Positions 37,748 through 48,900 of a DNA stretch of 64,000 nt are shown in pieces. Origin of the DNA: Scatophagus argus (Eukaryota; Chordata; Actinopteri; Scatophagidae); assembly GCF_020382885.2 (NCBI RefSeq), contig NC_058512.1, positions 9,512,802-9,576,801 of the forward strand, in the 5' to 3' direction. A model generated the notes under the pieces. The model was not told the DNA's origin. It saw nothing but the letters and a program-made list of their open reading frames with translations, and ran no database searches. Positions within the stretch are counted from its first letter, which is position 1; every line of letters starts with the position of its first letter. A program made the translations under genes and the position numbers.

Positions 37748-37761
37748 GCCGAACAACAGCC

Positions 37762-40282
37762 ATGGGCCAGAAGCTGGAGAGGCTGTCGGAAAAAGATGAA
37801 GAGTCACTTGACTGTTCAGACTGTTCTGGGCAAACTGGAGAGACAGAGCAGTCGGGGACAGCAGACGAGATCAGAGATCAGGACAATGGCAGTTTTGGTA
37901 GGATTAGTGGGATCAGTGTTGGAGGCCTGGCCGCTGGGCACCCAGGGGAGCTCACACTCACTCCTGCACGTACAGACCCCCAAACTGGGCAACCAATCAG
38001 GCCTCTAGGTCAGCTGAAATACACTCTGAGCACCAGGGGAGAGTGGGTGGGTGGAGACAGGGAGAGCCGGAGTATTGCTCCAACTGCAGAGGAGTCAAAA
38101 ACTGTCCTGAGCACTAAGGAGACAAGACAAACTTCAAACAAAAAGCGAGGCGCTGCGATTAAGGCTGTGGCCTATACTGGGACTACAGCTATGGAGGAGC
38201 AGGGAAATGGGAAGAAATCAGAACTTAGTGAAAGCAAGTCAGGTCCTGACGCTCAGAAGAAGAGTCTATCAGCCTCATGTGACCCCATTACTGAGGAAGA
38301 CTTTGTTGTACTTGAGGAGGATGACACTTGGATATCATCTGAAGGGGAAAATAATATCATGTTTGGCAACAGGATACAAACACATAATCTTCAGTCATCT
38401 GCTAAAATAAGAGTGGAGGAAGACGTCTCTGTTAGTCACAATGACAATAACCTTTCACAACCTTCGAGGAATACCCCTAAAGAAAAGGGTATCGAGAGGA
38501 CAGACGGTGTGGAAGCACATGCTAAGAGTTTACCCACAGCCTGTTTTGAGAAGGAAATGGGTCGACATTTGGCTGAAGTGACAGGCAGCAGGTGTCAGCT
38601 AAAAGGAGTTAGTCATGTTGGAGCTGCCCACACTGAGACAACTGGAAGAGGAAAAGCAGAGAGGGAGCAAAGTATGAATGAACACAGCAAGGGGAAAGTT
38701 TCTACTAACACTGATAAGGAGCGTCTGCCAACTGAGAACAACAGCAGCTTGGTGACGAGATTAAGAAAGAGCAGTGAAGATATGGCTGGTGAACCTGTTC
38801 AGCTGATTTCACAGGAGGAGCCGGTTAGGGAGAGAGACATGAGGTCAAATTGGGAACCCTGCCTGAAAAAGCTGGATCCTTCTTTAAGAGAATCAGAAAT
38901 TCAAGATATGGAAAGGCACAGGTCAGGTTTTATTGCAGAAAAGTCACAAGTGGGAGCAGATCAGTCGCATCACAGTCGATTTGCTGGTGTTGTTTCTAAG
39001 AGGTCTAAAGCAGGTACTCTTAGTTTGTGTACGAAGAAAGAGGACAGGACCAACTCTCACCCACCAAAGCCCCCCAGCACTGAAACACAACTACTGCAAG
39101 ACAATCCCTCATTTTCATTGGAACAATGCGACTTGATCCCTTGTCCTCCTCAGCTAGGAAATGAAGGCGGCGATGAAAAGTTACACATCGCAAGCTTAAA
39201 GCGGGAGAGTGAGCTTGTGTGTTTTTCTGCTGTCATCACTCCTCCACCTGTAACTGTGAAGCCTAAGAGAGACACATCAACGGCAGCACAGCTCAGTACA
39301 AGTGCAGTAAATTCACAGATGTTACCAGATCCCACATCTGCATTATGTGATTCGAAAGACGAGTCTGTACCTAAAGAAGAACCCAAAGTTAAAGGTCCAC
39401 CTCCGCCTGTCCCCAAAAAACCCAAAAATCCATTTATAAAACTCAAAACTGCACAATTAATGTCTACTGATGTGCAAAGAAGAGGCAAAGATCACCTGCG
39501 TTCTGAGGAGAGGGTCAAGAGGAGACACACATTTCACTTTAACAGAGATCCACCATTCAGCACTCAAACTAATCAGGACATGTGCTTGCTGTGGGACGAA
39601 AGGGGCACTTACACAGTGCCAACCAACAATCGGCCGCTTTCGGTTGACCTCAGCCCTTGGGAACAGTTTTCAATCGAACGCATGAACAATCGGTACGGAG
39701 ATATGATCGACTTTGACTACTGTGTGCGTATGGCCAAAATGTCCCCAGAGGAAGAGCCAGAAAACCTTGACATGTTGCAGAGAAGAGTATTCCTGGAGAG
39801 ACGATCCAGGTTTAAAAGCTCACCTCCTCCGGTTGCGAAAAAGCCCCAAAATCCTTTTGCGTCCACAGAGACTCTCCACATACCTGAGGCCATACCAGAT
39901 AATGAAATGCAAAGACAAAAAGCTGTTTATTCAGGGAAGAGAGAAATCCACCCTGAGCTTCAATCTGAAAGAGTGAACGCTCATATGAGCAACGATACAT
40001 ATGGTAGCTATGATAACCGTAAAGACGTAAGTGATTACAGCGGTGACAGGGATACAGGAAGTGGCAGTGAGGTGGGTTCGTACAAACCTGTGGCAGAAAT
40101 TGTCAAAGAGACAAATCAAATGCAGAGACATCAGGGCCGGGTCAAACATGAAGGAGCCAAAGCTCAAATTTGGATGGCAGAGCAGAGTCCAAGTGTGAAA
40201 GTATCCCAAATGAAGAATGCCTTTGATGTCCCAAAGAAATCCAAAGAGAGACCACCTGAAGTGCAACCATCTCCAAAGAAAG
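37762..40282 (+). CDS. coro1c: Giant alternative first coding exon, probably N-terminal extension of coronin-1C
   Basis: An open frame of 840 codons with a good Kozak start (GCCATGG) and an acceptor-like tract just upstream (pyrimidines then CTAAG at 37743-37747). It ends at a strong donor (AAAG/GTAAGG) after one base of a codon. The product is hydrophilic, rich in Glu, Lys and Ser, and looks mostly disordered. It has PPPPVPKKPKNPF at residues 546-558, PPPVAKKPQNPF at 688-699, and between them (about 585-686) a denser block with several Trp, Tyr and Phe. I do not recognise the family and see no enzymatic motif. No continuation exon is evident before the coro1c promoter. Splicing to 45982 restores frame exactly (G + AT = Asp, then Met 1 of coronin). 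Reading past the donor gives only a poly-Phe tail and a stop. The alternative is a separate fish gene whose other exons I failed to see. Confidence 0.6.
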
Positions 40283-45650: not shown

Positions 45651-45983
45651 AACAGTACATGAATTTAGTTAGAATCACTTTTAACTCTCTCTCAAGCAAT
45701 ATCTACTTTATCTGGTTACATTGCTGCTTCCTGTCTGAGTCTGAAAAAGTACATTGAGTTAAGCAGGTAAACACAGCTGGAGAAAGAATGTGTATCATGT
45801 ACAGTTTACGTCAAACATTTGCCAACAAACTCAGTCTGTGTTAATAAGCATGATCTGAGATTAACACAGACTGATTTTATAACATCAGTTTCTGTGGGGG
45901 AAATCACAGCTTCCAACTTTTGATTAGAAACACTTCTAAGCAAAACAATCACGTTAACTCTGTGTTCATTTGTCTCTGCAGAT

Positions 45984-48900
45984 ATGCTGCGGCGAGTTGT
46001 GCGACAGAGCAAGTTCCGTCATGTCTTTGGCCAGGCCGTGAGGAACGACCAGTGCTACGATGACATCCGCGTGTCCCGGGTCACGTGGGACAGCTCCTTC
46101 TGTGCTGTCAACCCCAAATTTGTTGCCATCATCATAGACGCCAGCGGGGGAGGAGCCTTTCTTGTCCTTCCCCTGCAAAAGGTCAGCGATGTTCTGAAAC
46201 AATCAAAAAGATCTTTTACGAGTTGCAATTTTGCATGAAGTACTCAAATAACATAGAATTTAAACAGTAAAGATTTATTAAAGGTCACACTTGGCTTAGC
46301 TCATATTTAGAAGACCTAGAGCATGATTGAGCATGATTTAAAGCAACCTTCTTCAATTCTCGTCCTCAGGGGCTGACGTTTTCTTCAACTGTGAAGTCAT
46401 ACGTTTAAATCCTACACACAGAGGCTTTGATTTTCCGATAAATAACTGCTCGACACTGGTAACTGTAGACCAAAATTTTACTCAGAGGGTGTAAGTTTAC
46501 CTAAGAGCTTAAAGGCTTGTAATCTAACAGTATTATGTTATAGAGTAGCATTTGGAGCATGTAGCAAATCAATCCTTTAAGCTTGTTCTCTGTCAGGAGA
46601 CCTTCACGGCACACCCTGTGACCCTGTCCTGCCATCCCCCGAGGCTCATATCTATAGTAAAAAGCATAGAAAATCAATGTTTAAATCTGCTGGATAATAA
46701 AGGCATCCATGTGTATCCTGTTACAGTTGGCTTACTGAGCACATGATACTCACAGAAGGGATGGGTGCTCCTGTGCCATTTTTATAGGCCTCAGGGTTAA
46801 CAGATTTAGATTTACTGTGTTCTGCCTGTGGGACAGCCAGGTGGATAAGGTCATAACAGTAAAAATGTGTTTACTGTGTCCTCACATTGAAATTATTCTT
46901 TGGGATCATAACAAGCTCAGAGGATCAAACTTATTCATAACTCTAAGCCTAAATATATTTCCACTGACTTCTGAGTGTAATTTTCTTGAAAAGGTGTAAT
47001 TATGATTCGAGCTCCGTGTGTGAATTGATTATTTTCTATCCCAGCATGAGGGCATGTGATAAAGTTGTGATGTGATGGACACAAAAGAGACAATAAGTGT
47101 CTTGTTGTCATGCGAAGGACTGGACACAACTTCCACAGAGAACAGGATAGTTAATTGTTTCTCAGTCATTTTCATATCTCTGTGACACTTATCACCCTTT
47201 GGAATGGTATTGCTCACACTTTTCAACCCTGCTGTAACAAACGTTGTCTTCTGTCTCACAGACCGGCCGTATAGACAAGGTCTATCCGACAGTATGTGGT
47301 CACACGGGCCCGGTGTTGGACATCGACTGGTGTCCTCATAATGACCTGGTCATCGCTAGTGGCTCCGAGGACTGCACAGTCATGGTAAGGACATGGTTAA
47401 TATCCACATGATCATCCTGTTTTATTATGTTTGTAAGAATGAATTAGTTCCTATAAAAATATTTGAATTATATTTCTGATATTTTTTTGGAGCATTTTTT
47501 GGAGAAAGACGCAGATCTGTTGTTTTAAATTGTTGACAGATTTGAAGGGTAATGGTGAGTATGGGGAAGGGGAAAACAGTAGCATGTGTATCTTTTTCTA
47601 GCTTTTAACATTAAATATTTGTTTTTGTTCAGTATATTTTCAGTACTATTTTCGGGGGGTGTAGTTTGTAGTGGTTTTTCACCGAGTATCTTTTTGTACG
47701 AGTCCTGTTTTCCTTTGTTTGAAAATTATTATACGTGTTGACTGAAGTTTCTGCTCAGTGTTGTGTGAAATATCAATATCAGTATTAACACAGAGTTTTA
47801 ATAAATTGTGCTTCTGTACTGTAAAAACAATTTTAGTGGATGCATTTTATCTCCATAGCTCCCGTTGTGTGTCTGGTATCTAACTTTGTTTTTTTTGTTG
47901 TTTTTTTTTTTCTTTTCCTCTGATTCAGGTTTGGCAGATCCCTGAGAACGGGCTGGAAACTCCCCTCTCAGAGCCTGTGGTCGTGTTAGAGGGCCACTCT
48001 AAGAGGGTTGGCATCGTTTCCTGGCACCCCACTGCTCGCAACGTTCTCCTCAGTGCAGGTAACCTTTGACTGAGGCTTGAGGTACAACCCGTGCACTTAA
48101 AATGTTTAGGTAATTGTCTGCCATTTGTACGCTGAGCACAGCTGAATGCCAAATCTGACCAGTTATCTCATGGATTGCCTTATGTTGCTCTGCTTTGACG
48201 TGAAGCGCTTAAAATAAACTTGGACAGAGAGGTGGGTGTAGTCAAGCTGTGCTGTATGTATCCATTTTAGGGTGTGACAACCAGATCATCATTTGGAACG
48301 TGGGCACAGGAGAGGCCATGATCAACCTGGAGGACATGCACCCCGATGTTATCTTCAGTGTCAGCTGGAGTCGCAACGGTAGCCTACTCTGCACCGCCTG
48401 CAAGGACAAGAAAGTCCGCGTCATTGACCCCCGTAAAAGAAAGGTTGTTGCGGTACGTGCAAATGCTGCAGGGGATTTGGAGCTAGGATGCTTTACGTTT
48501 GGAGTAATCTTTCCCAGAATCACACACAAAGTCTACGAACGTGGTTGCCTAGTCTGACGTGTGCTTTCTGTTTTCAGGAGAAGGACAAAGCTCACGAGGG
48601 AGCTCGACCAATGAGAGCCATCTTTTTAGCAGACGGAAACATTTTCACCACTGGATTTAGCCGCATGAGCGAGCGCCAGCTAGCCCTGTGGAAAACCGTA
48701 CGTCACAGGAGTGGATTTCATTTAATCCTGAACACACTGTGATGCATCTTGCATACACTGCCATCAATATGATGCTTGACTGGAGAACCTTGCTTTGTAC
48801 AGCTTCCCATCCATGATTTAAGTCCAGTATTGTCATTGTTTTCCATCAGTTTCTCCAGTGCTGCCTATTTTTCCCCCATATAAGCAAATTTTTATTCTCT

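Follow-up and report, generated by a model that had tools for sequence, protein, structure and literature searches.

A window of 64,000 nucleotides from the fish Scatophagus argus (contig NC_058512.1, positions 9,512,802 to 9,576,801 of the forward strand; hereafter the window) contains coro1c, the gene of coronin-1C, and upstream of it on the same strand a giant open exon of 840 codons. Based on sequence comparisons, this exon (37748-40282) is probably an old alternative 5' coding exon of coro1c, through which coronin-1C would acquire a long disordered N-terminal tail. Coronin-1C helps to organise the actin skeleton, and coronins are currently treated either as compact actin regulators of 450-500 residues or as tandem-propeller forms. 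An earlier note on this DNA had proposed a giant coronin-1C isoform; the same arrangement is duplicated on another chromosome (contig C4), which supports that reading and makes splicing into coro1c appear much likelier than first thought. The fusion is favoured because the position is kept in the duplicate, the donor is the same, the conserved part of the exon faces coro1c and no other convincing shared exon lies between. Among vertebrates, the genome comparisons covered this one fish genome (570.7 Mb, 48 contigs). The features that carry the argument are the following.

37748..40282, plus strand: giant exon, coding from ATG 37762 for 840 codons plus one base; its 5' border is a putative acceptor or a promoter start; paralogue at L011:3874-6064.
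40283..40288, plus strand: splice donor GTAAGG, with sequence and phase the same in the C4 copy.
45982..46181, plus strand: first coding exon of coro1c, with the border cag|AT ATG.
47262..50936, plus strand: the remaining nine coding exons of coro1c, assembled with AG/GT borders.
C4:7937873-7940063 (L011:3874-6064), same strand as the C4 coro1c: C4 giant exon of 730 codons, between a second ssh1-like gene and a second coro1c.

From ATG 37762, which stands in a GCCATGG context and opens an MGQ start, the plus strand is free of stops for 859 codons (37762-40341). Of these, 840 codons and one G precede the donor, where an AAA codon and the single G are followed by GTAAGG (AAAG|GTAAGG; intron from 40283), which confirms the exon and the donor after one base of a codon that the earlier note had described. 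The span given there, 37748..45986, was right in its start, which is that of the giant exon, while its end takes in the intron and the first coro1c bases. On the plus strand of the window, the sequence AAAG|GTAAGG occurs a single time. The 840-codon frame is not due to chance: no stop-free run exceeded 232 codons when the stretch was resampled 500 times with a first-order model, and 500 resamples of the C4 stretch gave at most 204 (real value 730). A small codon model, for which coro1c and two presumed ssh1 frames served as training set, gave modest support for coding. The correct frame scored 0.024, -0.032 and 0.011 in its thirds and 0.001 overall, compared with a maximum of -0.060 nat per codon among 400 noncoding control segments (280 codons each, best of three frames). 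It ranked first among the three frames over the whole length and in both outer thirds; in the middle third another frame was marginally above it (-0.029 vs -0.032). Several wrong frames likewise exceeded the control maximum, and part of the signal is therefore composition. Third-position G+C was 0.43 in the giant exon vs 0.64 in coro1c.

The body of coro1c consists of ten coding pieces (45982-50936) with AG and GT borders that together encode 474 residues. Its first 66 residues match DUF1899 in Pfam (1.3e-31) and, as the best match in PDB, coronin-1C (7sty); the frame reads as coronin-1C, with the basic N-terminal motif and the propeller of a short coronin body and a presumed coiled coil. Joining 37762-40282 in silico to these ten pieces produced an intact frame of 1315 residues, in which the junction reads GAT ATG (Asp-Met) and no stop intervenes. 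The prediction that the exon at 45982 brings two bases before its ATG, continues in frame through Asp-Met and yields a coronin of about 1315 residues was thereby borne out. Phase, donor and acceptor at this junction are compatible both in the window and on C4.

The evidence for the duplicate comes from two genome searches. A six-frame search with the 840 residues hit the window and one other place, C4:7939736-7940062 (E 4e-4, 35% identity, residues 724-840), and the C4 match sits in a frame that is open for 810 codons. A search with the first 66 coro1c residues found eight coronin places, the best after the window being C4:7952010 (91%), and tblastn pieces of the C4 coro1c span residues 2-474 of the window protein. 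These positions put a second giant exon and a second coro1c on the same strand, with the exon 12 kb upstream. Both giant exons have an MGQ start, end in AAAG|GTAAGG in the same phase and are followed by cag|AT ATG at coro1c. In contrast, read-through past the donor would add 19 residues in the window and 53 on C4, and these sequences are unlike. Comparison of the two loci by blastn gave 30 rows, 28 of them collinear and the other two short out-of-order matches. We read the collinear block as svop, ssh1 and coro1c, with the genes named by eye; in a zebrafish paper, svopb, ssh1b and coro1cb are named in one place (PMC12452583). Most simply, the two blocks would be a pair left by the teleost genome duplication. 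The gene upstream of the giant exon is the following.

23880..29851, plus strand: gene read as ssh1 (slingshot), collinear with the second copy on C4; named by eye from its translated frames and from recall.

Local alignment of the two tail proteins gave a score of 142, whereas 300 shuffles had a mean of 63 and a maximum of 100. The aligned part comprises window residues 680-840 and C4 residues 583-730.

39799..40281, plus strand: C-terminal 161 residues of the tail (680-840), the sole part aligned above chance with C4; its core, at about 40084-40281, holds SVKVSQMKNAFD.

Across 64 aligned codons (alignment columns 825-896), 47% of the residues are identical, and the fraction of differences is highest at the third codon position (0.53, compared with 0.39 at the first and 0.34 at the second). 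Immediately before the propeller would come the conserved segment (PV.E..KET.Q ... SVKV.QMK.AFD). When 70 residues from the C4 end served as query for a reciprocal genome search (up to E 10, best candidates scored), the query's own place and the window exon (E 2e-5) were the only matches listed. Pattern matches to the conserved end in genome_contigs (148) and viral_contigs (90) included no confirmed relative, as expected for a fish gene.

The interval between giant exon and coro1c measures 5.7 kb in the window and 11.9 kb on C4. To screen for a partner exon, we compared the window interval, as 161 open segments each 12 residues or longer, with its C4 counterpart; 20 resampled intervals served as controls. 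No convincing shared coding exon was found between giant exon and coro1c, although a terminal exon of few codons could escape this screen. The best same-strand match had 25.4 bits; by the same method the giant exon reached 57 bits and the first coro1c exon 127 bits. This result agrees with the earlier remark that no other continuation exon is evident in the 1.7 kb before the coro1c promoter, one marginal match (25.4 bits) aside. Inspected by eye, none of the acceptor-like sites in the intervals (7 in the window and 15 on C4, a list outside which the true C4 acceptor falls) is followed by a similar peptide in the phase needed. Separately, a 148-codon frame stands before coro1c at 44947-45393 on the plus strand; it has no Pfam match and is outside the six best C4 matches of the screen.

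Several observations weigh against the assignment to coro1c. The coronin copy at C23:9167150 has the acceptor cag|AT ATG as well, and a scan of its upstream 20 kb showed no comparable giant exon. Because of this, the phase match is a one-in-three event and not independent support; taken alone, it is weak evidence for fusion, and the caution already voiced on this point is upheld. For the looser donor class MAGGTRAGK, 4 occurrences were found on both window strands vs 4.7 expected by chance. Since blastn between the two loci failed to pick up even the giant exon, the lack of blastn matches between that exon and coro1c carries little weight. When the last 130 and 125 residues of the two tails were removed, their score was 58 against a shuffled mean of 61, with 179 of 300 shuffles equal or better; the first ~710 residues are thus without detectable similarity. 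The C4 frame has an in-frame ATG 21 codons before MGQ, and the common MGQ start, which is likely, therefore depends on the acceptor-like site between the two C4 ATGs. Finally, the best intron peptide match lies slightly above the 20 controls (25.4 bits, control maximum 24.3), which leaves a little room for a small shared exon. Chance is the likelier source of this match. A shared repeat was also considered and rejected: the flanking DNA was unlike by eye, and the supposed repeat tail was present at one of 32 loci, L003, which is the window's own place.

The main rival explanation, which we consider unlikely, is a separate small gene located between ssh1 and coro1c, in which the giant exon would splice to a short terminal exon carrying the stop and the 3' UTR (untranslated region) in both duplicates. 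Both intervals offer room for such a gene, a terminal exon of few codons would have escaped the screen and one intron peptide pair is marginally above control. However, no convincing shared exon emerged from a screen able to recover both the giant exon and the first coro1c exon, and the conserved part of the giant exon adjoins the donor. An intronless gene of 859 codons, ending at the stop at 40339-40341 and served by the poly(A) signal AATAAA at 40508-40513, is highly improbable: the frame does stay open for 19 codons beyond the donor, with AATAAA following, but this extension, which closes with a T-run (poly-Phe), lacks a C4 counterpart, whereas GTAAGG is the same in both copies. That the frame is a late alternative exon of the ssh1-like gene, which does lie upstream on the same strand, or else a decayed or untranscribed relic, is the least credible proposal, as an upstream coding frame is hardly common to both copies given the different distances from acceptor-like site to ATG (14 bases in the window, 6 on C4), and as frames of 840 and 730 codons would not both stay stop-free in relics.

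The assignment to coro1c as an alternative 5' exon is compatible with two kinds of 5' end. A putative acceptor (..ctaag|GCCG, 37747/37748) is plausible, and the unequal distances to the ATG fit an upstream non-coding or first exon better than an upstream coding exon. Alternatively, the giant exon could start at a promoter, given the TATA-like box 68 bases ahead of the ATG. A motif scan found a second TATA match 400 bases before the ATG and none in the 2 kb before the C4 giant exon. Two MEF2-type and two M-CAT motifs occur in the 2 kb before the window exon and one of each before the C4 exon; in this control-free scan, the counts of muscle promoter motifs are too low for meaning. A bacterial promoter and terminator scan of 40200-40700 has no bearing on a fish gene. 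Two further sites concern the start of transcripts.

37694..37700, plus strand: TATA-like box TATAAAT, a possible promoter element of the giant exon.
42079..42083, plus strand: donor pattern CAG|GT with exon end at 42081, which may close the ordinary non-coding first exon of coro1c.

Building on the frame, splice sites, phase and duplicate, which are established, we propose the following for splicing, translation, tail function and dating. A transcript starting upstream of the ordinary coro1c promoter, perhaps at the TATA-like box, would include the giant exon, skip the ordinary first exon and splice 40282 to 45982. Translation from ATG 37762 would then produce a coronin-1C of 1315 residues with propeller and coiled coil unchanged. 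The 840-residue tail would be largely disordered. Its conserved part on the propeller side probably binds something and, of all tail regions, is the likeliest binding site, and the remaining tail may act as a long, fast-evolving linker. The giant exon would be older than the duplication behind the two coro1c genes, most simply the teleost whole-genome duplication.

The composition of the tails is consistent with this picture. Mean disorder propensity was 0.21 and 0.23 for the two tails vs 0.10 for coronin, on a residue-propensity scale rather than by structure prediction. Pfam domain searches with the giant exon and its C4 copy gave no match, a PDB sequence search with both whole exons returned nothing up to E 10, and a PDB search with the last 304 residues of the window exon gave chance-level rows only (E 0.31, 0.31 and 0.93). 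The window tail contains two near-identical modules with the pattern PPPVxKKPxNPF, which resemble ligands of SH3 and EH domains.

39397..39435, plus strand: module 1, residues 546-558, PPPPVPKKPKNPF; SH3-ligand-like and EH-ligand-like (NPF).
39820..39858, plus strand: module 2, residues 687-699, SPPPVAKKPQNPF; SH3-ligand-like and EH-ligand-like (NPF).

Through these Pro-rich/NPF modules, the window copy could recruit SH3- or EH-domain proteins to actin. No NPF is present in the C4 copy of the giant exon, and a function of the modules would therefore be specific to one duplicate. Between the modules, a segment (..PWEQFSIERMNNRYGDMIDFDYC..) is less disorder-prone than the remaining tail and may be a small folded or binding element. 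The 180-residue middle stretch with the NPF modules and PWEQFSIERMNNRYGDMIDFDYC had only its self-match in the genome up to E 10.

As a kind, an alternative first coding exon is known; its scale and age here were not found described for a coronin in the searchable literature. The N-terminal extensions of human CORO1C are short, with tens of residues, whereas the fish exon has 840 codons and is present in both duplicates, a comparison made by description only. Other genes of muscle or the cytoskeleton have giant alternative exons too, such as skNAC of NACA and those of the ankyrins; there, as in the fish gene, a single large in-frame exon extends a conserved core by a disordered region that evolves fast. 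According to a phylogeny of coronins (PMC3203266), human CORO1C has two extra transcripts with alternative starts in an additional upstream exon, which seem restricted to modern primates; as in the fish, an upstream alternative exon of the same gene lengthens the N-terminus and leaves the propeller untouched. The tandem coronins (POD/coronin-7) are likewise much longer, but owe their length to a second core domain in that account (PMC3203266), while the fish tail has no Pfam match. Among the matches listed in the searchable literature, which excludes subscription papers and genome-database models, no description of a giant N-terminal coronin exon was found; automatic fish gene models may already contain the isoform.

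If the assignment is true, a conserved tailed coronin-1C of 1200-1300 residues would alter the interpretation of its dosage, oligomer size and partners in fish, and knock-outs that hit only the ordinary coro1c promoter would be affected. It would also question the apparent limitation of long CORO1C isoforms to primates, as put in PMC3203266. More tentatively, and with less likelihood than its absence, a giant coronin-1C isoform with a disordered adaptor tail and its own promoter may have existed before the teleost duplication, perhaps in the vertebrate ancestor; its ~120-residue propeller-side segment would be a binding module so far undescribed, with the short extensions in human as remnants or an independent replay.

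Giant exons were found at two of the eight coronin places (C20, the contig of the window, and C4), and none looked alike by eye at the other six, where stop-free frames of at least 150 codons were sought in the 20 kb upstream. The genome searches with the 840 residues and with the 70 C4-end residues did not list any match at these six places either. Long same-strand frames upstream of them looked slingshot-like by eye on C14 (388 and 446 codons) and endonuclease-like at the C23:15024653 copy (702 codons); shorter same-strand frames (153-308 codons) occurred at C16, C14, both C23 places and C1, and none at C2.

Three neighbouring observations may be added. At C14:13777458-13797599 (L015, L016), a slingshot-like gene is followed by a coronin copy that resembles coro6 by eye, and visual inspection showed no giant exon between the two; the pairing of slingshot and coronin seems to be kept in another vertebrate duplicate. 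At C23:15014700-15024699 (L024:4493-6598), the 702-codon frame upstream of the coronin copy on the same strand is endonuclease-like by eye and then Thr-rich. Directly downstream of coro1c in the window, 54351-55697 (plus strand) encodes a single-exon, Ser/Thr/Pro-rich protein of 448 residues with a membrane-spanning-like segment. It matches Pfam EVI2A just below the cut-off (24.3 vs 25 bits) and ThiF weakly, and from its position and make-up it is probably selplg (PSGL-1).

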